Source: a virus. Taken from it: a stretch of DNA of 23,138 bases. The notes beneath the pieces were generated by a model. It was not told the DNA's origin and searched no databases. It saw only the letters and a program-made list of their open reading frames with translations. The stretch spans positions 1 to 23,138 of IMG/VR virus record IMGVR_UViG_3300002835_001139. One strand, given 5' to 3'. Below, piece by piece: positions 982-12,109 of this stretch; position 1 is the first letter of the stretch; every line of letters starts with the position of its first letter. The position numbers were made by a program, and so were the translations under genes.

Positions 982-2565
982 TTAGTCAACCTGTCTTCCA
1001 TCGCCCTTAGCATTTCTTCCTTCTCCAGAATTATCTGGGGAAGTTGCCTGTCGGTTTTGGGATCTTTGTCGGGTATTTCCAGCCTGGGCTGTTTGCTCTG
1101 CGGCGTCCTGAGCCTTTAAATCTACTACGTCGTCTCCGCCTTCTAGTGGAATCATTCCCTTTCTAATTCTAACTTCATTAGGGGTAATTACCTGCATTCT
1201 TAAATATCTTTCATCGATTTTAGATTGAGTATCTTCATCGGTAAGGGTTAATTCATTAAATTTAAGAGTTAATGCGTCTGTCTTTTCCTCAAATATTTTA
1301 TTTAATTTTTTCTCTAAAATCATTTGTGCTGGGCGACAAACCTGCTCTTTAAATGTTTTATCTGCATCACGAGCTACCGCTAAATTTACTCCTTCTGGAG
1401 TTCCAATTTTATTAATTGGGACACGGTGGGCCAATAGGATTTCATCTCTATTTGATTTGCGGTAAACATTAAATGAAGATTCCTGTGGATTTGCTTCCAC
1501 TGGCTCCATCTTAAATTCTGTCTTTGAGTCTGGGGTATCTCCTGGAAGTGGAATATATAGGGATCTATGATTCTTTCCTTTTAGTCCCACCTGGAAAAAC
1601 TCAAGCAATTTTCTTTCTGATTCTGCTGAAAGCTTTGCTCCCTTAACTGTAATAATATATCTTGGAACAGCCTTGTTTTCAAAGTAATCTAGGTTGTATC
1701 TGCCAGATAATTCATTACCTGCCAAAGAGACTTGAGCTGCAATAATATCTGCCACTCCATAATAATTATTCATCGGAGTGTACTTCTTCAAATGTATAAT
1801 TTCATTTGGTCGGTCTTCTTGACCAGCAATTGGATTCTCTGTTTCTGTGTCTCCAAAGTTTTTAAAGTAAACAGCCTTTCCGTATAGCAGTTGAATAAAT
1901 CCATCTCTAAGTCTACGCACACGCATTGTCTTTGCTGGGATGTGGCCAATATATCCAATGTTTCCATTTGTCGTTCTACCAATTTCAATATAGCCATTGC
2001 CTGTTGCTTCGTAATCTGTAAAAACCTTAATCAGTGTTTGTGTAAATGTATCTTCATCATTTGTTGTATCAAGCCATGTGTGCAGATCTTGCCTTAGCTT
2101 ACTTAGCTTTCTACGTGCTCTTTCAAGTGACTTGTCGTCTGTAAGTGAATCAATGGCGTCATTTGTTTTCTTTGTCTCTATAAAATCATATCCTAAGCCA
2201 ACAATGTTTGCAACTTTAGCATTAATTGCAGCGTAGTTATATGTTGAAATCTCATATACCTTTGAAAGGTATTCTAGGTTGTATGGAGGTTCTACTAGGT
2301 CGAACATAGCATAGCCAGTAATTGCTTGTGCTAATAAATTTTGCTGTGTGCCAGTCTCTTCTCTACCAGTAAATGATTTAGAAAATTCTCTGCTCATCTT
2401 GCGCTTAAAAGATGTTCCAAGACCTCTTACTTTTTTAAGATCTTCTAGTCCTACCGCAAATGGGTCATTGCTAATTTCATCTTTCTTTAAAGAAAACCAA
2501 TCGGCATTGTTTGAAATATTAATTATGTTTTCTGAGTTGTCCTCATCAAGAAATTCTACGCTCAT
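982..2565 (-). CDS. Phage portal protein (PBSX/HK97 type)
   Basis: The portal forms the dodecameric ring at the capsid vertex through which DNA is packaged and the tail attaches. The 527-aa protein has the PBSX-family pattern: a variable N-terminus, a block around 95-125 where the chain meets the head (VYEISTYNYAAINAKVANI), then TDYEATGNGYIEIGR, a stretch with P-A-x-T-M-R-V-R-R, and a central conserved block with YGVADIIAA and the GRYNLDYFENKAVPRYII motif. HRVPINKIG is another portal hallmark. The last 50 or so residues are polar, Gln/Asn-rich and probably disordered. Its ATG overlaps the stop of the upstream 113-aa gene (ATGA), so the two are probably translationally coupled. Head genes follow directly. 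Length is normal for the family. Confidence 0.88.
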   Translation of the reverse strand: MSVEFLDEDNSENIINISNNADWFSLKKDEISNDPFAVGLEDLKKVRGLGTSFKRKMSREFSKSFTGREETGTQQNLLAQAITGYAMFDLVEPPYNLEYLSKVYEISTYNYAAINAKVANIVGLGYDFIETKKTNDAIDSLTDDKSLERARRKLSKLRQDLHTWLDTTNDEDTFTQTLIKVFTDYEATGNGYIEIGRTTNGNIGYIGHIPAKTMRVRRLRDGFIQLLYGKAVYFKNFGDTETENPIAGQEDRPNEIIHLKKYTPMNNYYGVADIIAAQVSLAGNELSGRYNLDYFENKAVPRYIITVKGAKLSAESERKLLEFFQVGLKGKNHRSLYIPLPGDTPDSKTEFKMEPVEANPQESSFNVYRKSNRDEILLAHRVPINKIGTPEGVNLAVARDADKTFKEQVCRPAQMILEKKLNKIFEEKTDALTLKFNELTLTDEDTQSKIDERYLRMQVITPNEVRIRKGMIPLEGGDDVVDLKAQDAAEQTAQAGNTRQRSQNRQATSPDNSGEGRNAKGDGRQVD

Positions 2566-2903
2566 TTTATACCCCGTAATTTTTTCATTTCGTCTTTATA
2601 GTTTCCAATATCTAGTGGGTCTGGAACTAGTCCCCAGTCTAGTCTTTGCTTTTGGTGTTGGAATTCTTCATCGTCAATCTTTCTTCTTCCAGAAAGAAAT
2701 TTAGGCCCGCCTTCATATATGCCGAATGAGCGAACTTCTCTAGCCAAAGCATCGATCTTGGATCTATTTCCTTTTTTGGACGTGACTGAAAGAAAATTGC
2801 CATCATCGTCTCCAATCCATCTACCATCTGGCATTTGCCAAACATATATCCCAAGAGTTGTTTCCTCTTCAAGGATTTTAGAATTTATTCGGTTGATATC
2901 CAT
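2562..2903 (-). CDS. Small phage protein of unknown function next to the portal
   Basis: A 113-aa soluble, charged protein without signal peptide or membrane segment. The central part MPDGRWIGDDDGNFLSV and the C-terminal part with SGRRKIDDEEF and WGLVPDPLDIGNY look conserved in style, and I have the impression of similar small proteins beside portal genes in actinobacterial phages, but I cannot name a family. It ends in an ATGA overlap with the portal gene, so a role in head or neck assembly is a context guess only. The start at ATG 2903 has no Shine-Dalgarno; a TAAAAT box ends 8 bases upstream, which would suit a leaderless transcript. The 61 bases between it and the LamG gene hold that promoter candidate. 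Confidence 0.7.
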   Translation of the reverse strand: MDINRINSKILEEETTLGIYVWQMPDGRWIGDDDGNFLSVTSKKGNRSKIDALAREVRSFGIYEGGPKFLSGRRKIDDEEFQHQKQRLDWGLVPDPLDIGNYKDEMKKLRGIK

Positions 2904-2911
2904 AGTAATTT

Positions 2912-2940
2912 ATTTTACCATTACTTCCCGCTTAAGTCCA
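2912..2940 (-). promoter_or_regulatory. Candidate promoter for the head genes
   Basis: On the minus strand, TGGACT (2940-2935, 4 of 6) and TAAAAT (2917-2912, 5 of 6) are 17 bases apart; the ATG at 2903 follows after 8 bases and has no Shine-Dalgarno. A perfect TTGACA also lies just upstream at 2951-2946 but is 28 bases from the TAAAAT box. It would drive the small gene, portal and protease. Confidence 0.4.
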
Positions 2941-2964
2941 GCTTTTGTCAACCAGTAGGACAAA

Positions 2965-4737
2965 TTATTTGTTTTGGAGTACAATCCAGTCATTGTCGTA
3001 GAACTCTACTGAGTTTTCTGTCAACGTAATGGACGAATCATCTGCTACAGTAGCAGATCTTCCAATATGCATGTTGTAATGAGACAGTGCGGTAGGGGCT
3101 GTAAATGTAGATGGATAGTAAGAGATATATTGATATAGGCTAGAAGGGCCACCTGTTGCTGAATGATTAAATAATATTTGGCCTGTAATTGGTCCACTTG
3201 TTACAATTATAATATGATAAAGCTCGTTTGGGGTAAATACAGAGCTTATATTTGTCTGAGATGTTCTATCTACCCCATTAACATAAATAGCAGATATATT
3301 AGATTTAGTAATAGTTCCATTAGTAGCCCAAGAATATCCTGCTGCTACAAAGTCTCCATTTGCCGTGCTTGATATAATAGAGTTTGATGTAAGGTCTGAT
3401 AGAGTTAAAAATAACTCTATTGTCTTTATTGATTCTGCGGTGTTAATTTTAAATCCCGCCCCATCTGCTGTTGTCACACCATTTAGCTTTTGGCGGGACA
3501 AGATAGGATATTTAACTCGTCCTAGCGTAATATCTTTTGAGGCAAATCCAGCTGTGCCCTCTATTGTATAAATATAATCGGGGTTGCTTATTGAATATAG
3601 GATCTGATCTTTATAGAAACAAAGTAGTAGGTTGTATAGTCTTGGAATAAATTTAGATGTATCTGATGATGCAAATGTTATCTCAAGATAAAGGGTTCTT
3701 TCAGAACTAAATGATCCTAATTTAAATTGAGGAATTGCTCTTCCATTAGAACAGGCTTGCCATGTTGTTCCATCTGTAGAAGTTCTTACAGACACCCCAT
3801 TATCGCCGCTCCACTCTATCTTAGAGGAGTCTAAGTCGAATCCTGCAGGAATTGCTATGGCATCTACAACAACTACGCTCTTAGAGGCTGCAGAGTCCGT
3901 TTTGTTTATTTCAAGGCATTTCTCTTGGATGTTATATGTTAAATCTTCTGATGCAAAAATTTCTAGCGGCTTATTAGCTGGATAGGCAAAGTTAAATTGT
4001 TTGCTAACGCTATCGTCGTATATTTCAAACAACGTACCGCTATCTGGGTAAGAAACTTGAAATGGTGAAGTAGTGCCAGAATAATTATAATGTTCTAAAA
4101 TTCTATCTGAGCCAAGAGCATACCTGTAAACTGCTGGAGCATCTACAATGAATGAATCGGACGCATTTCCTGTTGGACCTAGTTTTAATGTAATTGTTGG
4201 GCTAGTAAACTTGTAATTATTTAAAGATTTGCTTGCTGCAAATTTGCCGTCTACATATAAAGACATTTCTGTAATAGAATACGTGGCTACAATATGATGA
4301 GATTGGCTAATATTGGGTAAAGTATAATCAAGTCTTTCCGCTTCAAGTTTAAATACTATGTTACCCTTTTCGTAAAAAATACCGATATTATTTGTTGAGT
4401 CTGCAAATATAGTTGTTAACCCAGTTGTAGTAATTTTAGGGTAAATCCAAACTTCTAATGAAAATGCGTTATCTGATGAGTTATTATCTGCAAATCCACC
4501 ATCGGCGGTAGATCCATAGTAATCTTTGGTTACTGGTAAAGTAATGTACTTTGTGTTTGTTATTAATGATCCATTTGCCCCGCCAGCAACAAGTGGAATA
4601 AGCCCCGTAGAAATTGCCCCCGTGTAGGTTCCAGAATTACCACATCCAGAAACGTCGGTTGCGGTAGTGCCAGACAGCTCGTCTAGCGGCCAAAAGCCAA
4701 TAGGGTAATCGTTTATTACTTTAAGTTGGTAGCTCAT
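2965..4737 (-). CDS. LamG/concanavalin A-like domain virion protein
   Basis: A 590-aa protein with a laminin-G-like jelly-roll at the N-terminus. The family signs are YPIGFWPLDELSG at 11-23, SLEVWIYP at 93-100, SHHIVATYS at 146-154 and MSLYVDGK at 158-165. A second region at about 420-530 (IKTIELFLTLSD, then IYVNGVDRT and LYHIIIVTSG) looks like another copy of the same fold. The middle is beta-rich without a recognised motif. Such domains bind carbohydrates or protein surfaces and are frequent in phage tail and baseplate appendages, so a role in adhesion is likely; the precise position in the virion cannot be told. It follows the oxygenase operon after 31 bases and has its own -10-like box; no Shine-Dalgarno precedes the ATG. 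Confidence 0.75.
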   Translation of the reverse strand: MSYQLKVINDYPIGFWPLDELSGTTATDVSGCGNSGTYTGAISTGLIPLVAGGANGSLITNTKYITLPVTKDYYGSTADGGFADNNSSDNAFSLEVWIYPKITTTGLTTIFADSTNNIGIFYEKGNIVFKLEAERLDYTLPNISQSHHIVATYSITEMSLYVDGKFAASKSLNNYKFTSPTITLKLGPTGNASDSFIVDAPAVYRYALGSDRILEHYNYSGTTSPFQVSYPDSGTLFEIYDDSVSKQFNFAYPANKPLEIFASEDLTYNIQEKCLEINKTDSAASKSVVVVDAIAIPAGFDLDSSKIEWSGDNGVSVRTSTDGTTWQACSNGRAIPQFKLGSFSSERTLYLEITFASSDTSKFIPRLYNLLLCFYKDQILYSISNPDYIYTIEGTAGFASKDITLGRVKYPILSRQKLNGVTTADGAGFKINTAESIKTIELFLTLSDLTSNSIISSTANGDFVAAGYSWATNGTITKSNISAIYVNGVDRTSQTNISSVFTPNELYHIIIVTSGPITGQILFNHSATGGPSSLYQYISYYPSTFTAPTALSHYNMHIGRSATVADDSSITLTENSVEFYDNDWIVLQNK

Positions 4738-4743
4738 CTTATT

Positions 4744-4749
4744 ATTATA
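4744..4749 (-). promoter_or_regulatory. Consensus -10 box for a leaderless LamG transcript
   Basis: The minus strand has a perfect TATAAT at 4749-4744, ending 6 bases before the ATG at 4737. No TTGACA-like element lies at 16-18 bases (the positions read AT-rich). There is no Shine-Dalgarno close to the start. The distance puts the expected transcription start on, or one base from, the A of the ATG. Confidence 0.4.
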
Positions 4750-4768
4750 TACCTATTTCCTTTATATA

Positions 4769-5374
4769 TTATTTTCTAAAGAAAAAGATTGCAACCATAT
4801 ACTTTGTACCCTCTGTTGTTGGCAAAGGCTCATGCAAAATTCCATGGGACTTGAATACGACTGCGCTTCCAGGCTTTGGCTTAACAGAAAGGTTGTCATT
4901 AGGAAAAGCCAGGTCTCCACCCTGATAATTATCGTTTAAGTAAAAAACAATTGAAACTGTGCCTGTCAAGTGCTGTGGGCTATAGTCTGGATCCCAGTCA
5001 GTATGTGGGCCCATTTCTGTAGAATTGTTATATTTATATATCTTGCAATGTGTTGGGAGATCCCCTAAATCTATTTGATGTGCCGAAGCGTACTCTTCTG
5101 CTATTTGTATTGCCCTATAATGAATCATACTGGCAAACTTAGAGTTATGCCTGTCTCTATTATTATTATTTAAAACATTTTTATAATTGATTGTTTTTTC
5201 ATAACCATACTGAACAGTTTTGCATGAAGAATTCCATGGCTCCCATTTACTTATCTGAGAGCCCATATCTTGAAATTGATCCATTAATTCAATTTCTTTT
5301 ATTAACTCTTCAGGGTTGTCAAATACTTCTGTATAGTAATGTATATCTGGAGTAAGTATTTCTTTAAGCATCAT
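4769..5374 (-). CDS. 2-oxoglutarate/Fe(II) oxygenase (P4H-like), sixth of the cluster
   Basis: A dioxygenase of the prolyl 4-hydroxylase type, which couples 2-oxoglutarate decarboxylation to hydroxylation of a substrate. Counting from the start chosen here, iron ligands are His124 and Asp126 (GPHTDWD) and His181 (ILHEPLP); Lys191 (EGTKY) would bind 2-oxoglutarate. The block YLNDNYQGGDLAF followed by KPKPG is the typical beta-barrel core. At 201 aa it is little more than the catalytic domain. A longer frame opens at 5419 but lies inside the preceding gene; ATG 5374 has AAAGG five bases upstream and overlaps the previous stop by 11 bases (ATG 5371 is an alternative). It is the last gene of the operon. 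The substrate is unknown. Confidence 0.82.
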   Translation of the reverse strand: MMLKEILTPDIHYYTEVFDNPEELIKEIELMDQFQDMGSQISKWEPWNSSCKTVQYGYEKTINYKNVLNNNNRDRHNSKFASMIHYRAIQIAEEYASAHQIDLGDLPTHCKIYKYNNSTEMGPHTDWDPDYSPQHLTGTVSIVFYLNDNYQGGDLAFPNDNLSVKPKPGSAVVFKSHGILHEPLPTTEGTKYMVAIFFFRK

Positions 5375-6074
5375 ACTTACCTTTATGTGTTGGTGGAGTT
5401 CCCCTTTTCTTAAGATCATTCCACTCTTCGTAAGTTTTTTCTTGTTCTGCTCTTGTTTCTTTAAGTTCGGCTTCCCACTCAGCTATTTGTTCTGGTGTAT
5501 AAACTGCATCAGCATCATCCCAAAACGATCCCACTGTATATCTTTCTGCCTTTTCAACCATCGTGACTTCATGCTCGTTGCCATATCCACCTTTAAAGAA
5601 AGCAAGTCTACCAGGCTTTGGCTTTATTGCAATATCATGATGTTTAAAGTTTAAAAACCCTCCATCAAAATTATCATTTAGATAAAGGAATCCTGCATAT
5701 TTACTTTTATAGAATGCGGAAGGCTTTCCGTCTTCATGGGTATTATCTGAGTGAAAACCTGCAAATGCTCCTATTACCCACTTTTGTGCGTGGTAACTTA
5801 CTTCTGATAACTCTTTGTTAAAACAGGTTTCCCCTGCTAGTTTAACTTTTTCTTTTAGTATAGAAAAATAATCTTTAGGCAAGCCAAATAGAAGTAGGTT
5901 ATCGTCCCAAGGCCAGTAGCCCATGGCAAGAGATCCGTAAAAAGAAATTTGATTCCACTTTAAATGACCAGCGTCGGTAATTGCGTCAAAATAAGCAATT
6001 ATTTTTTGGCATTCTTCTTCTGTAATTAAACCATCAACAACAAAAACATCATCCTTAAGCGATACAATTTCCAT
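5364..6074 (-). CDS. 2-oxoglutarate/Fe(II) oxygenase (P4H-like), fifth of the cluster
   Basis: A 236-aa dioxygenase with a complete facial triad: His108 and Asp110 (GFHSDNTHEDG), His168 (NEHEV), and Arg178 (KAERYTVGSF) for 2-oxoglutarate. The core YLNDNFDGGFLNF plus KPKPG matches its neighbours. Unlike them it carries a C-terminal extension of about 50 residues rich in Glu, Lys and Trp (EWEAELKETRAEQEKTYEEW), probably helical. The start is ATG 6074, sharing one base with the previous stop (TAATG), with GGAG five bases upstream; the GTG at 6080 is ruled out because it overlaps that GGAG. The substrate cannot be predicted; sequence similarity to the other five looks low outside the core. Confidence 0.83.
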   Translation of the reverse strand: MEIVSLKDDVFVVDGLITEEECQKIIAYFDAITDAGHLKWNQISFYGSLAMGYWPWDDNLLLFGLPKDYFSILKEKVKLAGETCFNKELSEVSYHAQKWVIGAFAGFHSDNTHEDGKPSAFYKSKYAGFLYLNDNFDGGFLNFKHHDIAIKPKPGRLAFFKGGYGNEHEVTMVEKAERYTVGSFWDDADAVYTPEQIAEWEAELKETRAEQEKTYEEWNDLKKRGTPPTHKGKYDA

Positions 6075-6934
6075 TAGCACTCCGTCTTATCTTTATCTTC
6101 TAGACTATCGATATAATCTATATGATCTTGTATTTCTTTTTCAGTTGGAACCTTTAGTTTTCCATTTTCAAATACTAGGTTCCCGCCATATACATCTAGG
6201 CTCATTCTTCTTTTTTCCATTTCAGCCCATTTTGTTGCACCGTATTTTAATTGGTTTTCTAGCCATTCATCAGACCCCTTATATGGATAAACCATAAAGT
6301 TTCTGATTAAATATTTATTTCCTTTAGTCGCCGTTCTTACGCCATGATAGTATCCTTCTCCAGAAGGAAATACCATTATGTCTCCTGCCTCTGGCTTGTA
6401 TGCGGGAACAAATTCTCCATTAACATAAAACTCAATTTCTCCGCCTTCATAGTCGTCATTTATATAAACCGTACAGGTTATATAAAATTTATTTCCTGGA
6501 GCATCCTTATCTGTTTGTTTAAAATCTGTGTGATACTGCATTGTTAAATTATTCTTTAAAGAATCTACGTTAGTAAAATATTTGCAAAATGATGATGAGC
6601 CGAGCTCTGCTCCTTCTGGAAGGTCAACATTATATTTCTTTATGTAGTCTTCAAGAGCAATATTATATGCATCCCAAACTGTTTCTGCAGCCCAATACTC
6701 TTTGTCAAAAGTTTCATTTTTGCCACGTAGGTTATCCATAGCACCCTTAAATTTTGTTGATGAGTATGTGCCAAAGGAGCTCCATCTAGTCCACGGAACA
6801 AAATAATGTTCATCTGAATCTTTTTCAATGTTTTCTGTAGACTTTACAACATCAAAAATTTCCTTATGATCTGGAAGTAAACCTTTGTAAATTTCAATTC
6901 TGGGATACAGGGTCTTTGATACTATATTATCCAT
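6074..6934 (-). CDS. 2-oxoglutarate/Fe(II) oxygenase (P4H-like), fourth of the cluster
   Basis: At 286 aa this is the longest oxygenase of the set. His135 and Asp137 (QYHTDF), His197 (YYHGV) and Lys207 (KGNKYLIRNF) form the metal and 2-oxoglutarate site; YINDDYEGGEIEFY and the KPEAGD turn mark the double-stranded beta-helix. The N-terminal 100 residues and the 70-residue C-terminal extension (KWAEMEKRRMSLDVYGG onwards) are not shared with the neighbours and may define substrate or partner binding. It begins 8 bases inside the preceding gene with AGGAG upstream and ends in a TAATG overlap, so it is coupled on both sides. Confidence 0.84.
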   Translation of the reverse strand: MDNIVSKTLYPRIEIYKGLLPDHKEIFDVVKSTENIEKDSDEHYFVPWTRWSSFGTYSSTKFKGAMDNLRGKNETFDKEYWAAETVWDAYNIALEDYIKKYNVDLPEGAELGSSSFCKYFTNVDSLKNNLTMQYHTDFKQTDKDAPGNKFYITCTVYINDDYEGGEIEFYVNGEFVPAYKPEAGDIMVFPSGEGYYHGVRTATKGNKYLIRNFMVYPYKGSDEWLENQLKYGATKWAEMEKRRMSLDVYGGNLVFENGKLKVPTEKEIQDHIDYIDSLEDKDKTEC

Positions 6935-7610
6935 TTATTTTTTCTCCTAATTTAGTTATAGTCCAAAACCAAGGTGAGGTGTATCTTGTTCCTTCTGTAA
7001 TAATATCGACACCATGTATATAGTTTAAATCACCTGGAAAAAAATATGCCGCTCTAGCTTTTGGCTTAAAAGCAATTTCTTGTTTTGGAAAATGCAATCT
7101 ACCACCTTCGTAATCTTCATTTAAATAGATTACTGTCCCAATGTCATACCATGGAAAATTGTTTGCAGTTCCCTTATCTGGTCCTTCGTGCAATTCTTTA
7201 TCTGCGTGTGGCCACTGCATAGAGCCAACTGGCCATCTAACAAGGCATGGGCCTGTAGGCTTTACCTCTACATTAAAATGCTTTTCAATCATTACTCTTA
7301 GTCTTTCAATTATTGACTCTAGCATTACTGAAACAGCTGGATCTGACTCATCTAAAGATTTTCTTGTTGCAACACGGTTTGCCCATACGTTGTGTTGATA
7401 GATGATTGTTCCATTCTCATTTTTAACATCTTGGCCCTGATCCCAAACTTCATTATTTTTAATAAAATTTAAAAGGTATTCGTTTTCTTCTTCCGTTAAC
7501 AAGTTCTCTATTTCAACAATGTTTTCTTTACCATTGCCAAAATAACCAGAAGGCGTGATTGATGTTCTGTGCTTTCTAATATCCGAAGGGTTCTCTACAG
7601 TGTTTTCCAT
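6927..7610 (-). CDS. 2-oxoglutarate/Fe(II) oxygenase (P4H-like), third of the cluster
   Basis: A 227-aa dioxygenase with His135 and Asp137 (WPHADKE), His199 (YIHGVDI) and Arg209 (EGTRYTSPWF). The core reads IYLNEDYEGGRLHFP followed by KPKA. A stretch around 138-155 (HEGPDKGTANNFPW), inserted after the HxD motif, is not seen in the other five and sits at the active-site mouth in this fold, so it may shape the substrate pocket. AGGA precedes the ATG, 9 bases after the stop of the DUF6065-like gene. Chain length and motif spacing are normal for the phage members of the family. Substrate unknown. Confidence 0.85.
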   Translation of the reverse strand: MENTVENPSDIRKHRTSITPSGYFGNGKENIVEIENLLTEEENEYLLNFIKNNEVWDQGQDVKNENGTIIYQHNVWANRVATRKSLDESDPAVSVMLESIIERLRVMIEKHFNVEVKPTGPCLVRWPVGSMQWPHADKELHEGPDKGTANNFPWYDIGTVIYLNEDYEGGRLHFPKQEIAFKPKARAAYFFPGDLNYIHGVDIITEGTRYTSPWFWTITKLGEKING

Positions 7611-7619
7611 TTATTTTTC

Positions 7620-8330
7620 CTATTCATATTTCTTGGGTACCCAGGTATTTTTTTTATATACTCCAGTATTTGCTCTATATATGGCCACATGGTCATTGTG
7701 TCTTTTTTGCATTTCTTGATACGTATACAAATTAAACTCTGATTTCCATTCTTCTCTTTTGATTGGAATTATTTGTGCATAGGGAGTTCCTTTTGGAATA
7801 ATTCCTTTAAAGCCATCTCTAATAAAAAATGGCATTAGCCCTGGCGGGGCATACCTATCACTATCAATTATACCGCCTACCGTTAAAAAAGGCAGCTCAA
7901 AATTATTAATAGGCTGTACAACTAAAGCGCTATACCCTTCTGGAAGGGTAAATCCCCAATTTGGATACCAGTGATAAACAAATTTATAATATCCTTCTGG
8001 ATAATGAAATTCTCCCATGTGCGAACGAATTGAAACAAAGTCATCAAATCCTGGCTCTGCTTGCACTAATGTGTATCCGTCTTTTATAAAAACATTAATG
8101 TCGCATGGTGTTGTAAGCATATATCCTGTCGTAAAAATATCATGTAAGGCTGGACAGGCTTTAAAGCCTGGGCCTCTTTGATTGTCTGGAGGACCGACTA
8201 CATCATTTCCTTCAAAATCTTTCCAGTACTTGCTAGCATTCTTAAACCATCCTGGCATAACATTTTTTGTAGGGCTTGGAACAAGATCTTTATTGTTATA
8301 GTGTCTATTTGAATTAAAAACAATTTTCAT
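7620..8330 (-). CDS. DUF6065-like protein, second copy
   Basis: A 236-aa protein with no signal peptide or membrane segment. It starts with a region containing LVPSPTKNVMPGWFK, then FKACPALHDIFTTGYML, a Tyr/Trp-rich middle (HWYPNWGF), and a block LPEGYSALVVQPINNF, GGIIDSDRY, and finally IIPKGTPYAQIIPIKRE. The last block resembles IKAGQPVIAILPISLTE in the neighbouring upstream gene, so I regard the two as distant paralogues with a probably beta-rich, cupin-like fold. The function of the family is not known to me. Its ATG overlaps the preceding stop (ATGA). Its place within the oxygenase operon suggests a shared task, for example presenting or binding the same substrate. Confidence 0.65.
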   Translation of the reverse strand: MKIVFNSNRHYNNKDLVPSPTKNVMPGWFKNASKYWKDFEGNDVVGPPDNQRGPGFKACPALHDIFTTGYMLTTPCDINVFIKDGYTLVQAEPGFDDFVSIRSHMGEFHYPEGYYKFVYHWYPNWGFTLPEGYSALVVQPINNFELPFLTVGGIIDSDRYAPPGLMPFFIRDGFKGIIPKGTPYAQIIPIKREEWKSEFNLYTYQEMQKRHNDHVAIYRANTGVYKKNTWVPKKYE

Positions 8331-9040
8331 TTGTATTTATTGACTTTCAGCTTAATTGATTTTACTTCATGAGATCCTAGTTTATTTCCTAGATAGTCTG
8401 TGGCATCTCTATAGTAGTCTGTCCAAATTTGTTTTTCTGCCGCCTCTTTAGCTGCAGCAACTGCTCCTTCATAAGTTGGAACATTCTCAAAGTGTGGCTG
8501 TGGCATATGCCTTATATCCTTTACTTCAAGAGTAGAGTTGTTTAGCTCTGTTAAAGATATTGGCAAAATTGCAATTACTGGTTGTCCAGCTTTGATTGTG
8601 ATTGGAACGTATGGCTTTGTAATCTTCCATGCAACTGGCAATGGGCTACCAAAAAAAGATGTTGTTAGTAAGCTTGTTACGGCCTGGGCTCCATCAACAA
8701 ACATATTTGGAACTGGGAAAGATAGCAATGTGTAATTACTTTCTGTTTCAAAAGTTAGATTTGTTTTAAAATTAATTGTTGAGTGACCTCTACCAGTTTC
8801 GCAGTATTTTTGTCCTTGTAAAACCTGAACATTATGTGGATAGGTACTTGTTACTCCATCCCACATAAAAGTTATATCTTCTGGAAAAGATATTCCCCAG
8901 CCTAATTGATTTGCTAGAGTTAGTGGAAAGCACCTGTATGCATGATTATGCTCCGTCTGGTCCATCCAATCTCTTTTTGCAGAGAGTGGCTCTATGTTAG
9001 CTGTATCTTGCAAATTATCATATGCTGTTACCTTAATCAA
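8327..9040 (-). CDS. DUF6065-like protein, first copy
   Basis: A 237-aa protein with the traits I associate with DUF6065: AKRDWMDQTEHNHAYRCFPL at 21-40, then LANQLGWGISFP, TFMWDGV, a GRGHSTINFKTNL block, and the late IKAGQPVIAILPIS strand pair. The C-terminal 50 residues include an Ala/Glu helix (AAAKEAAEK) and a basic end (SIKLKVNKYK). The start is a TTG at 9040 that directly abuts the previous TAA; AAGGG lies 8 bases upstream, and no ATG is available nearby. No catalytic residues can be named. It occurs here between oxygenase genes two and three with no gaps, pointing to a common transcript and probably a common pathway. Confidence 0.65.
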   Translation of the reverse strand: MIKVTAYDNLQDTANIEPLSAKRDWMDQTEHNHAYRCFPLTLANQLGWGISFPEDITFMWDGVTSTYPHNVQVLQGQKYCETGRGHSTINFKTNLTFETESNYTLLSFPVPNMFVDGAQAVTSLLTTSFFGSPLPVAWKITKPYVPITIKAGQPVIAILPISLTELNNSTLEVKDIRHMPQPHFENVPTYEGAVAAAKEAAEKQIWTDYYRDATDYLGNKLGSHEVKSIKLKVNKYK

Positions 9041-9781
9041 TTAATTATCCCTTTGTTCTGCTGGGATAAATTTTTTACCTTCGGTAAAATGGTTATATTC
9101 ATAGCCTGCCTCTATTTCTCTATAAAGAGGTGTGTGTGGAGCCTCTTGATAATCTAACATTGTAACAATTGCATATTTAGTTCCAGATTTTACTGGCATT
9201 GCTGCATGAGAATAAATATAAGAAGAAGGAAAAAGATATAGATCTCCAGCTTTAGGTTTAATCTTTAAGCCAAGCTTATCGAAAAACAACTCTCCGCCTT
9301 CGTAGTCGTCGTTAATATAACCTACTGATGAAAGCACACACACATATGAATATCCGTGATCTGAATGGACATTAAAGTGTTGATTTTTTGCATACTTAAT
9401 AAAGTTAAAAGATTCCCAATAGTTTAAGGGTGGAAGCTGAAACATTTTCATGTAATCTGCTACAGCGTTAAGCTGTACTCCTTTTGAGTCTCTCCATATC
9501 TGTCTTAGCTCTATTTCATCCTCTGTAAGATCTTCTTGCTGAACATGATTTCCATTGCCATACATTAGGGATCCGCCGTCATTTTCTTTAATTTTAAAAT
9601 CCCAGGCATCACGATAATCTGTATTTAGTGTATCAAAGCCTGTTTGAGCCAGGTTCCAGTGCTTCTTGCTTTCTTGTTTTTCTAAAACCTTTTCTAGTCT
9701 TTCTGCCAGATTGTACTCTTTTTTAAAGACGTCTCTGTATACAATAATTCCTGGATATATAGTTTCTGCATTTGGAAGCAT
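9041..9781 (-). CDS. 2-oxoglutarate/Fe(II) oxygenase (P4H-like), second of the cluster
   Basis: A 246-aa dioxygenase. His139 and Asp141 (VHSDHGYSY), His192 (YSHAAMPV) and Lys202 (SGTKYAIVTMLDY) give a full active site; the core is YINDDYEGGELFF with KPKAGD. It is clearly a paralogue of the gene just upstream: both share RDAWDFKI, an N-x-x-x-H-x-D-x-G-x-S-Y segment, FPSSxIYSHxAxPV and VTMLDY at matching spacing, so a tandem duplication is likely. An insertion of about 25 residues at 85-110 distinguishes it. An AGGGGAAA sequence lies upstream of the ATG, which starts one base after the previous gene ends. Confidence 0.85.
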   Translation of the reverse strand: MLPNAETIYPGIIVYRDVFKKEYNLAERLEKVLEKQESKKHWNLAQTGFDTLNTDYRDAWDFKIKENDGGSLMYGNGNHVQQEDLTEDEIELRQIWRDSKGVQLNAVADYMKMFQLPPLNYWESFNFIKYAKNQHFNVHSDHGYSYVCVLSSVGYINDDYEGGELFFDKLGLKIKPKAGDLYLFPSSYIYSHAAMPVKSGTKYAIVTMLDYQEAPHTPLYREIEAGYEYNHFTEGKKFIPAEQRDN

Positions 9782-9782
9782 A

Positions 9783-10406
9783 TTATTTTTTCCCCTTGTG
9801 TTTGTTATCTATCATTCTATCATATTCTTCGGTATGGGCATCATCATTGTAGTCTAGCATGGTAACAAAAGAATACTTGACTCCTGACTCAACTGGAAGA
9901 GCTACGTGAGAATATATAAAAGAGGAAGGAAATATAACTAAATCCCCTATCTCTGGTGTTATATGTAAATTAAATTTAGGAAAATATAGCCCACCGCCAG
10001 TATAACCATCATTTGGATATCCGACTAAAGATACGGCACATTTATATGACCACCCGTCATCTGCATGCTCTTGAAAAAATTGATTAGGGTAATATTTAAC
10101 TACATTAGTCCATTCCCAAAAATCCATTTTAATTGAATACATATTGCAAAAATCTTCAACTGCATCTTTTTGGCAATTATAAATATCTTTGTAAAGTGGG
10201 TGAGATTTTCCAAGAGCAGAGATCTTAAAGTCCCATGCATCCCTGTATGTTTTATCTGTCTCTTCTAAACAAACAGTTGCACTATTCCAGTCAGTTTCTT
10301 TGCTGGATACGCAATCTTCAATACGATTAATTAAATCAAGTTCTTTTGGAAAAGAATTAGGATATACCCATATCCCAGGGTACAACTGTTTTTTGTTGTA
10401 TATCAT
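9783..10406 (-). CDS. 2-oxoglutarate/Fe(II) oxygenase (P4H-like), first of the cluster
   Basis: A 207-aa dioxygenase that opens the operon. His114 and Asp116 (QEHADDG), His167 (YSHVALPV) and Lys177 (SGVKYSFVTMLDY) are in place. One core position differs from the neighbours: YPNDGYTGGGLYF, with PNDG where the others have IND or LND. It is the nearest relative of the second oxygenase. The ATG has no Shine-Dalgarno and sits 6 bases after a good -10 box, so its message is probably leaderless. The last 17 residues are charged. The substrate is unknown; the gene directly upstream encodes a strikingly proline-rich protein. Confidence 0.85.
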   Translation of the reverse strand: MIYNKKQLYPGIWVYPNSFPKELDLINRIEDCVSSKETDWNSATVCLEETDKTYRDAWDFKISALGKSHPLYKDIYNCQKDAVEDFCNMYSIKMDFWEWTNVVKYYPNQFFQEHADDGWSYKCAVSLVGYPNDGYTGGGLYFPKFNLHITPEIGDLVIFPSSFIYSHVALPVESGVKYSFVTMLDYNDDAHTEEYDRMIDNKHKGKK

Positions 10407-10444: not shown

Positions 10445-12109
10445 TTAGTTATCCTGAAATTCTGCGTCCGACTCTTCTTCATTGTGTGGATTTTCAGCAA
10501 TATGAGGGTCCACATCATTTGGATCTATCTCGCTGTAAGTTTCGCATCCATTATATGCAAGCATTGATCCTGCCACAAGAAGTCCCCACGGTTCTCTGTA
10601 GAATAAAAATACGTCTGTATCTTTTTCTACAAGATCCAAGGACTCAACAACTATTGGATCAGAAGGGTTATCGTAATTAAATATTTCATCGCCAATTTCT
10701 AGGTTAGCTGCTTCTGGAAGCATATATTCATTGCCTCTTTTTATCACAGGTTGTTCTACTAATGACAAATCATATTTAGGATTGTTATTAATTCTTACAA
10801 CTGATGATTTTGTTTCCTTGAATATATTTGTAACCTTTGACTCTAATGTTTTTTGATTAATTAAATTAGAATCTCTCCATGAAGCAACTTGAATCATGCA
10901 GTCTGTGCTTATGTATCCTTGTGCACAGTTAGAAGAATGTTCTGGCAAATTATCAAAATAAGCGGTTAAAAGAATATCATCTATCTTTATATCTTTTGCT
11001 TTTTTGTATCCGTCCTTAGTAAGCACCTCCGTATCTGCTGGTATACAGAATCCTGGAGGGCCAAAGAATCTTGGAGGGCCAAAGAATCCTGGAGGTGCAA
11101 AAAATCTTGGAGGTGAAAAGAATCTTGGAGGGCTAAAGAACCCTGGAGGTGAAAAGAATCTTGGAGGGCTAAAGAATAGTGGAGGTGTAAAGAAGTTTGG
11201 TGGTGTAAAAAATAGTGGTGGCACAAAGAACTGTGGTGGCGCAAAGAACTGTGGCGGCACGAAGAAGTTTGGTGGCGCAAAGAATTGTGGTGGCGCAAAG
11301 AAGTTTGGCGGCACAAAGAAGTTTGGTGGAGCAAAAAAGTTAGGTGGCGCAAAAAAGTTAGGTGGCGCAAAAAAGTTAGGTGGCGCAAAGAAGTTTGGTG
11401 GGGAGAAAAAAGCTGGTGGTGAAAAGAATGTTGTAACTTCACCAGTTGCAGAACCTAAAGAAGTTCCATTTGCGTTTACTGCTTTTACTGTATATATCTG
11501 GGCACTTGCCATAGTCTCTCTAATTGCTATAGATGTTGCTGGGAAATTAGCTTCATATGGTGATGCTAGTCCGCCTGGCTGTGTAGTTAAATCTGAAGAT
11601 GTAATTATATATTTTGATATATCTTTTCCACCAGTTGCTGGGTGCCCCCATGAAACAATATCTTGTCCACGTTGTCCTGGTGTAGTGGTTTGTGTACCTT
11701 CTGTGCTATGGCCTGGACCTGTAGTGTTAGATACTGCTGTAACTGTTCTTGGTGATTGTGGAACTGTTGTAACTAAAAGAGGGGCGGTTGCGGTAGACTC
11801 CTGAGAAGTTCCATTTACATTTGTTGCATTTACTGTTACAAAGCCAGTTAGTCCTGAAGGTATTCCAGTAATTAAAATTGGGGATGTTGCAGAAAAATCT
11901 GTATAAGTTACTGATCCAGTATTAGGAGTAAACTTTGCAGTGTAATTTATAATAGGCAATTGGCCTGTTGGGTATTCAAAAGTAATATTTATAGCCCCAT
12001 TGTTATATGGTCTATTTGTTCCTACATCTGTTGCAACTACATTTATTGGTGGTACTGGATATTCAAAATCTCCAGAAAGTTGCGCTTTTCTACCCGTCTT
12101 TTTACCCAT
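10445..12109 (-). CDS. FnIII - FFxPP repeat - Hint domain surface protein
   Basis: A 554-aa protein of three parts. Residues about 20-112 and 116-227 look like two fibronectin type III modules (TGFVTVNATNVNGTS; YTVKAVNANGTS). Residues 228-353 are 21 uninterrupted FFxPPx hexapeptides (x is mostly Ala, Ser or Val). The next hexad is FCIPAD, and its Cys355 starts a Hint domain (CIPADTEVLTKDGYKKAKDI, later ANLEIGDEIFNYD, ending EPWGLLVAGSMLAYNGC at 522). An acidic 32-residue tail follows. Hint domains cleave or splice proteins at Cys1; here the block-B His position appears to be Gln (LVEQP), so activity is uncertain. The gene sits among fibre genes, hence probably a virion surface protein. GAAGGG is the likely RBS. 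I do not know a named family for the whole protein. Confidence 0.8.
   Translation of the reverse strand: MGKKTGRKAQLSGDFEYPVPPINVVATDVGTNRPYNNGAINITFEYPTGQLPIINYTAKFTPNTGSVTYTDFSATSPILITGIPSGLTGFVTVNATNVNGTSQESTATAPLLVTTVPQSPRTVTAVSNTTGPGHSTEGTQTTTPGQRGQDIVSWGHPATGGKDISKYIITSSDLTTQPGGLASPYEANFPATSIAIRETMASAQIYTVKAVNANGTSLGSATGEVTTFFSPPAFFSPPNFFAPPNFFAPPNFFAPPNFFAPPNFFVPPNFFAPPQFFAPPNFFVPPQFFAPPQFFVPPLFFTPPNFFTPPLFFSPPRFFSPPGFFSPPRFFSPPRFFAPPGFFGPPRFFGPPGFCIPADTEVLTKDGYKKAKDIKIDDILLTAYFDNLPEHSSNCAQGYISTDCMIQVASWRDSNLINQKTLESKVTNIFKETKSSVVRINNNPKYDLSLVEQPVIKRGNEYMLPEAANLEIGDEIFNYDNPSDPIVVESLDLVEKDTDVFLFYREPWGLLVAGSMLAYNGCETYSEIDPNDVDPHIAENPHNEEESDAEFQDN
11051..11428 (-). repeat. 21 tandem 18-bp units encoding FFxPPx
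   Basis: An in-frame 18-base tandem repeat, 378 bp long. Phe, Phe, Pro and Pro are invariant in all 21 units; the third position is Ala (9), Ser (6), Val (3), Thr (2) or Gly... counted by eye, with Gly in the last two units; the sixth is Asn, Gln, Leu, Arg, Gly or Ala. Sixth-position Asn and Gln dominate the first half and Arg and Gly the second. Three copies at 11331-11384 are identical in DNA, which suggests recent slippage or unequal exchange. Confidence 0.95.

Follow-up and report, generated by a model that had tools for sequence, protein, structure and literature searches.

The window, by which we mean the whole stretch of viral DNA analyzed here (23,138 nucleotides; IMG/VR record IMGVR_UViG_3300002835_001139), contains on its minus strand an open reading frame (10445..12109) whose 554-aa product, the rod-Hint protein, combines FN3-like domains, a rod of FFxPPx hexapeptides and a Hint tip. 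Residues 20–227 (11429..12052, minus strand) form a beta-sandwich region in the AlphaFold2 model, with block pLDDT values mostly between 64 and 93 and low values around residues 130–146. We read its strands as two FN3/Ig-like domains, and Pfam fn3 is found in four relatives of the protein (L020, L033, L048 and L060 in our numbering of loci). The rod occupies residues 228–353 (11051..11428, minus strand) and is followed by the Hint-fold tip (residues 355–520; 10550..11047, minus strand) and a C-terminal tail beginning GCETYS (residues 521–554; 10448..10549, minus strand), for which pLDDT is below 50. A first-pass annotation had described 21 perfect FFxPPx units running into a Hint domain, and an exact recount gave the same number (DNA 11428..11051). 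The next hexad reads FCIPAD, with Cys355 at its second position. The rod/Hint boundary had been placed at 354/355, in agreement with the structural alignment, where Cys355 is Hint residue 1.

Modeling of the whole protein with AlphaFold2 on 16 aligned relatives gave a mean pLDDT of 66.5, with strands at about 20–227 and the Hint part at 355–519; pLDDT was below 50 for rod residues 230–353, whose fold was not predicted. Searched alone, the protein had no match in Pfam at E up to 1 and none by tblastn among 50,697 phage records at E up to 10. Copies that are 100% identical occur in three other IMG/VR records (L009, L010 and L018), which argues against an assembly artefact.

Next to the rod gene lies a cassette containing six genes for 2OG-Fe(II) oxygenases, all on the minus strand. 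The prolyl-hydroxylase-like oxygenase 1 (9783..10406; PF13640, E 8.8e-8; HxD..H kept) is the nearest, followed by oxygenase 2 (9041..9781; PF13640, 8.7e-12), oxygenase 3 (6927..7610; PF13640, 1.1e-5, at 26.7 bits just below the 27-bit cut-off; HxD..H kept), oxygenase 4 (6074..6934; PF13640, 2.3e-9), oxygenase 5 (5364..6080; PF13640, 2.3e-9) and oxygenase 6 (4769..5419; PF13640, 9.5e-13). Inside the cassette, the minus strand also encodes a DUF6065 protein (8327..9040; PF19541, 5.7e-34) and a phrog_7084 protein (7620..8330; 2e-36). Both have BLAST matches in 26 of 26 loci of 19 kb or more found with oxygenase 2, and since the two proteins resemble each other, one gene may count for both.

The H, D and H of the HxD..H motif are invariant in all six oxygenases, and a Lys or Arg, a residue with a binding role for 2-oxoglutarate, precedes the conserved Tyr. 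The best PDB matches to a joint profile of the six were prolyl 4-hydroxylases (5iax at 2.2e-11, 3itq, 5hv0) and P3H1, followed by PKHD-type hydroxylases, PHD2 and the lysyl hydroxylase LH3. By this profile, the six neighbors can be classed as prolyl-hydroxylase-like. The first-pass annotation drew no connection between the rod and the adjoining oxygenases, which is the strongest signal in the present analysis.

Fold and active site of the tip

The window sequence gave a sub-threshold match to the NCBIfam model intein_Nterm (E 0.064), while a profile of 44 tip rows matched the BIL domain 2lwy in the PDB at 1.6e-7. When the tip was modeled alone with AlphaFold2 from 44 sequences, the mean pLDDT was 87.7, and most core blocks reached 94–98. 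The best PDB matches of this model in Foldseek were BIL2 6tmm (1.8e-6), 6y75, 2lwy and the gp41-1 intein, with hedgehog 1at0 in eighth place. VIA-align superposed the tip on 6y75 with a Z score of 16.0 and an rmsd of 2.2 over 138 residues; in several rows, the aligned range ran from tip residue 8 (Cys355), equivalent to chain residue 1, through tip residue 173 (Asn520). The hedgehog autoprocessing domain (1at0) shares the fold, with a Z score of 13.9 and an rmsd of 2.5 over 132 residues. In a viral library, uncultured-phage proteins of the PASTA, FN3 and Hint types led the fold matches; also among the best were unnamed entries whose lengths, 506 and 153 residues, equal those of two ORFs of phage NCTB. 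The models thus bear out the Hint domain of the first-pass annotation: residues 355–520 are predicted to adopt the Hint fold, with BIL domains, inteins and hedgehog nearest, despite the weak matches of the single sequence.

The catalytic positions were compared in 55 tips at less than 90% identity, which were also used for a tree. They were drawn from 62 tips, left from 131 HMM-positive ORFs on removal of 58 identical ones, 7 without a rod in the ORF and 4 of other tip length. We take Ser449..Glu452 to be block B (the TxxH position) and Tyr519-Asn520 to be block G. Block B of the window reads SLVE rather than the TxxH of active domains, and block G reads YN rather than HN, so that Asn520 is kept and the His is replaced. 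Asn520 is followed by Gly521, with Cys522 one position later, in place of the Cys, Ser or Thr that opens the C-extein of a splicing intein. Compared with the BIL domains 2lwy and 6y75, the closest to the tip in both solved fold and sequence profile, the window has lost both the block B His and the block G His; compared with hedgehog 1at0, it has lost the block B His. Only a 34-residue tail follows the tip, leaving no sterol-recognition region, unlike in hedgehog. In one alignment of 12 tips, Cys355, Cys395, Cys404 and Cys522 are invariant; the Hint fold presumably brings Cys355 and Cys522 close together, where they could act as a redox lock.

Residue 1 is Cys355 in the window and Cys or Ser in all 55 tips. 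The full set of Cys1, [ST]xxH and HN is present in 7 of them, the same number as combine Cys, His and HN at residue 1, block B and block G. The remaining combinations are Cys/Glu/YN or NN (22 tips, the window's clade), Cys/Gln/HN (15), Ser/His/FD or YD (8) and Cys/Gln/IA, which lacks the Asn (3). Relatives with the full set include L033 and L138. Self-cleavage of the Hint domain, in the form given by the first-pass annotation, is not supported by these data, since the catalytic set is broken in the window and complete in so few tips.

Within the window's clade, Cys1 and the terminal Asn are kept in 22/22 tips, and residue −1 is Phe in 22/22, compared with 2/33 of the other tips. The block B Glu maps to one change on the tree (support 93, in a quick tree with some long branches), so Glu together with Phe(−1) may be a single event. 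The linker between the last Phe of the rod and Hint residue 1 has length 0 in 21 of the 22 clade members and 0–10 in the other 33 tips. The proposed register between rod and cleavage site therefore holds in this clade and not in general; as a general mechanism it was dropped because linker lengths vary among tips, and it was kept as a clade-specific clue because Phe(−1) is invariant there. In excerpts of the study by Friedel et al. (PMC6333167), bulky side chains at position −1, Phe included, offset the block B mutation His73Ala: the Ssp DnaB intein recovers its N–S acyl shift, and for the evolved variant M86 the compensation extends even to splicing. Together with the invariant Cys1, Asn and Phe(−1), such rescue leaves room for a slow, strain-driven cleavage. 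From its residues, self-cleavage of the window tip appears doubtful, with a slow reaction possible.

The rod family and its exchangeable tips

The 21 hexads of the window rod are encoded by 19 different DNA units. Compared between units, the codons for the invariant F, F, P and P share their third position in only 63% of cases. The repeat thus looks kept by selection at the protein level, not made by fresh DNA expansion. A DNA pattern of three FFxPP units, searched in IMG/VR and in the genomes of 84,980 prokaryote species, gave at least 119 stretches in the former and 11 in the latter. The prokaryote stretches have 3–6 units each, mostly in short frames; no comparable rod gene was shown among these 11, and the ones in frames longer than 250 aa (L146, L147 and L150) have no FN3-like context by eye.

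The loci collected contain 137 rod ORFs (105 without duplicates), with rods of up to 35 units. Position 3 of the hexad is Ala, Ser or Gly in 1130 of 1189 units (Gly in 161), and position 6 is Gly in 575 (48%), giving PPG, a classic collagen P4H sequence. PPG occurs in only 3 of the 21 hexads of the window rod. Among the 105 ORFs, 50 have a complete tip of at least 140 aa, all aligning as Hint-like; other rods stop after a few residues or carry Cys-rich ends, and that of L035 carries Peptidase_S74. The N-terminal parts vary as well: of six rod proteins scanned, four have fn3 and one has PASTA, and further N-terminal parts are unnamed. These varied tips and N-terminal parts mark the rod as a shaft used with many ends, and the rod-Hint protein belongs to a large phage family with exchangeable tips. 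The first-pass view of the Hint domain as the end of the rod therefore stands for the window, whereas in the family it is one of several tip types; that interpretation as a whole is partly supported.

The rod of L035 (9634-10341, minus strand) is followed by a Peptidase_S74 domain (endosialidase-type chaperone; E 7.4e-10), a domain that is shed after trimerisation, which suggests that such rods can belong to trimeric fibres. Short Cys-rich tips replace the Hint domain on rods of L020, L021, L022, L053, L057, L072 and L124. Some records encode two rod proteins with differing N-terminal parts and the same tip type (L046/L090, L045, L088 and L031/L092); in L046/L090, the tips are 78% identical and the N-terminal parts 43%. 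The tip type is not common to both proteins in the pairs L022/L029, L053 and L072/L052. A comparison of eight pairs for concerted evolution within one genome had a mixed outcome.

To assess selection, we compared the window with L011, L015, L017, L019, L025 and L107, counting the tip together with the tail. The dN/dS of the tip was 0.09 (L011), 0.06 (L015), 0.30 (L017) and 0.32 (L019); tip dS was saturated for L025 and L107, so the ratio was computable in four of the six pairs. For the rod, dN/dS was 0.09–0.14 where computable. The tip is under purifying selection, conserved for function. Its synonymous divergence exceeds that of the FN3 part, with pS values of 0.69 (L011) and 0.74 (L015) for the tip and 0.32 and 0.31 for the FN3 part, respectively. 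This difference fits an exchange of tips, as expected of a recognition or adhesive tip, and the tip has apparently been exchanged by recombination at or near the rod.

Linkage of rods and oxygenase genes

We tested 100 rod-bearing records for PF13640, a picked set of 50, mostly larger, and 50 further records, many of them short. At least one match was found in 97 and at least three in 86, namely in 50/50 of the mostly larger set and 36/50 of the further set. Among rod records of 20 kb or more, 60 of 63 had at least three matches; the exceptions, L040, L087 and L112, had one each, and the records of L040 and L112 end within the rod ORF. Many of the 14 records with fewer than three matches are short or end near the rod gene, and there was no match in those of L043 (8.5 kb), L078 (13.5 kb) and L141 (9.3 kb). 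The median gap between the rod frame and the nearest oxygenase frame is 60 bp (113 rod genes, duplicates included, stop-to-stop frames).

As a control, we chose relatives of the window's portal blind to the rod and took the closest 80 of at least 598. With a local HMM, each of the 6 loci with a rod has 6 oxygenases, and 71 of the 74 without a rod have none. The three rod-less exceptions are L155, a 5-kb fragment with one at its edge; L221, with five and cut off at the cluster; and L227, with one. In 35 whole records of portal relatives, each at least 20 kb long, all five with a rod have at least five PF13640 matches; the 30 without comprise 21 with no match, eight with one or two and a single one with six, namely the record of L221, which ends beside the cluster. 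For three or more matches, this amounts to 5/5 versus 1/30 (Fisher 1.8e-5, kinship not corrected).

A search with oxygenase 2 found 58 loci, and a rod gene is present in all 44 with at least 3.5 kb upstream, 7 of which have no match to the Hint HMM. All 26 oxygenase-2 loci of 19 kb or more also match the window's portal and are therefore not independent. However, only 14 of 46 rod loci at least 11 kb long include the portal in the piece covered, against 41 with an oxygenase 2 BLAST match, so the link between rod and oxygenases seems wider than one head type. The oxygenases accompany rods on unrelated N-terminal parts and tips. L186, a rod-less portal relative, encodes FN3 proteins with a Gly-rich shaft, and its record has no PF13640 match; the related FN3 proteins with such shafts lie at L186:1321-2886 and 2865-5396. 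PF13640 matches also occur in the rod-less S-H9-1 (7, of which 5 over the cut-off), S-SKS1 and NCTB (2 each, with 1 over the cut-off) and AG-345-O18 (1). These two cyanophages, NCTB and a marine virus show that the enzymes are not exclusive to rods. Rods are usually accompanied from phage to phage by the prolyl-hydroxylase-like gene cluster.

A WhiB gene, an actinobacterial marker, is present in a 109-kb record with an identical rod-Hint copy, in 8 of 26 rod-bearing records tested (that record included) and in 1 of 4 rod-less ones. The window's portal is 58–60% identical to Streptomyces phage portals (20 listed of 186 matches). The phage probably infects freshwater Actinobacteria, where the freshwater habitat is our assumption from IMG study names. 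A LamG protein and orf113 upstream of the portal (window 2562-4737) are matched in 27/27 rod-less portal loci with a full upstream flank. The genes adjoining this pair differ in the rod-less portal loci compared, and in six rod-less relatives that share the head genes, the position of the rod is taken by quite different genes.

Proposed function and related systems

The rod-Hint protein is the only proline-rich protein among the 22 of the window, with 12.8% Pro and 22 PP, against at most 8.9% and 3 PP in the others. We hypothesize, and consider it moderately probable as a whole, that it is a virion-borne adhesin with a hydroxylated rod and an exchangeable Hint tip. The FN3-like domains would lead into a stiff FFxPPx shaft, with the Hint-fold domain as its distal, exchangeable tip. 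The neighboring oxygenases could hydroxylate prolines of the shaft (PP, and often PPG in relatives), as collagen P4Hs do on collagen, and thereby stiffen it or add a hydroxylated surface. In a polyproline-II helix with three residues per turn, the repeat would place F1/P4 and F2/P5 in two Phe-Pro ladders and x3/x6 on a third face. The tip may be retained chiefly for its fold, as a recognition or end domain, and cleavage in the window's clade, if any, would be slow and not its main role. Hydroxylation, virion exposure, adhesion and the polyproline-II-like shaft are what we infer, whereas the architecture, the Hint fold, the rod–oxygenase linkage, the purifying selection and a synonymous divergence fitting tip exchange are observed. 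Six enzymes are more than one repeat needs, which counts against rod hydroxylation, as does the presence of PPG in just 3 of 21 hexads of the window rod. A narrower, tentative proposal, for which we see the case as nearly balanced, is that the co-inherited phage enzymes hydroxylate the rods and that the Glu-clade Hint, with its Phe(−1) from the rod register, draws on the rod, which may supply the strain driving the N–S acyl shift.

The oxygenases could instead act on another target, such as other fibre proteins, glycans or host proteins, and merely travel with the rod in an adsorption module. Other differences between rod-bearing and rod-less loci would fit such a module: str166 is found in 5/6 rod-bearing and 0/27 rod-less portal loci, and six rod-less portal relatives, compared gene by gene, carry quite different genes upstream of LamG. 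Oxygenases without rods also exist, and some rod records have few. Yet the rod protein alone is proline-rich in the window, the oxygenases stay with rods despite unrelated N-terminal parts and tips, and the record of L186, with similar FN3 domains on a Gly-rich shaft, is free of PF13640 matches; we regard another target as rather unlikely, though a serious contender. Unlikely, too, is the view that the Hint domain, through an N–S acyl shift at Phe354-Cys355, cleaves itself off and leaves a rod-end thioester that joins a nucleophile. The Hint fold from structural comparison, the invariant Cys1, terminal Asn and Phe(−1) of the clade, the complete catalytic set of 7/55 tips, the Peptidase_S74 end of the L035 rod and the bulky (−1) rescue of block-B-His mutants in an engineered intein (PMC6333167, in excerpt) are in its favor. 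Throughout the window's clade, however, Glu takes the place of the block B His, and Tyr or Asn that of the block G His; a second clade combines Ser1 with FD/YD, and a third lacks the Asn, ending in IA. The rescue described in that excerpt concerns His to Ala, not Glu, in one engineered intein, and the pairing of Glu with Phe(−1) may reflect one event.

An intein-like fold with degraded motifs could also be a mobile mini-intein or its remnant, useless to the phage. The tip is the last domain of the chain, followed by little or no C-extein (several tips terminate in HNK), and its dN/dS of 0.06–0.32 where computable speaks for function, which makes this very improbable. That the repeat is chance low-complexity or antisense sequence can be practically dismissed: its low-complexity character and the short FFxPP runs in bacterial genomes (11 stretches of 3–6 units) are outweighed by the varied codons of the 21 perfect units, by rods that reach 35 units, by the fn3 or PASTA parts of five of six scanned rod proteins and by the low dN/dS of the rod. 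The hydroxylated, Hint-tipped adhesin is the reading that we favor.

Parallels to parts of this adhesin exist elsewhere. Eriksson reportedly described in 1999 that the virus PBCV-1 encodes a prolyl 4-hydroxylase and Pro-rich viral peptides. As here, enzyme and proline repeats would both be virus-encoded; unlike here, the virus is algal and its repeats are said to be PAPK, differing from FFxPPx. To our knowledge, the Pro-rich peptides of PBCV-1 have no Hint tip. Collagen-like phage tail fibres likewise have a proline-containing repeat shaft, and PPG is frequent in the window's relatives, but the FFxPPx rod has paired Phe and lacks the regular Gly of collagen at each third position. According to excerpts of one paper (PMC3368898), bacteria and viruses do not have the prolyl hydroxylases that collagen requires; excerpted text elsewhere ranks 2OG-Fe(II) oxygenases first by number among the auxiliary genes of one marine cyanophage (PMC10436341) and calls the use of viral prolyl 4-hydroxylase cryptic (PMC9301287). 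The rod family offers viral 2OG oxygenases a concrete, testable candidate substrate encoded next door and, if our reading is true, would provide an example of a bacteriophage structural protein with hydroxylated prolines. The larger find here is a family of phage rods linked with prolyl-hydroxylase-like genes. In the literature searched (sources outside subscription, in part as excerpts), we found no description of an FFxPPx rod or its hydroxylation, and FFxPPx rods with plug-in tips would be a class of phage adhesion shaft that we found named nowhere in it. At one structural position, the tips offer a series of natural Hint domains whose catalytic sets range from complete to broken, and the Glu clade with Phe(−1) is a natural parallel to the bulky-(−1) rescue of the engineered intein (PMC6333167, in excerpt).

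A C-terminal Hint domain on a fibre-like protein is likewise found in phage NCTB, in the tail protein SBV38305.1 and its neighbors (LT598654, ‘contains intein domain’). The shaft there is collagen-like or of another type, not FFxPPx, and the NCTB genome has no match to the rod pattern; unlike the window tip, the NCTB Hint domain has TxxH and HN by eye. A short NCTB gene annotated as an intein domain protein (L142 8480-8941) lies between a gene for a Hint-ended tail protein and genes for collagen-like tail fibres.
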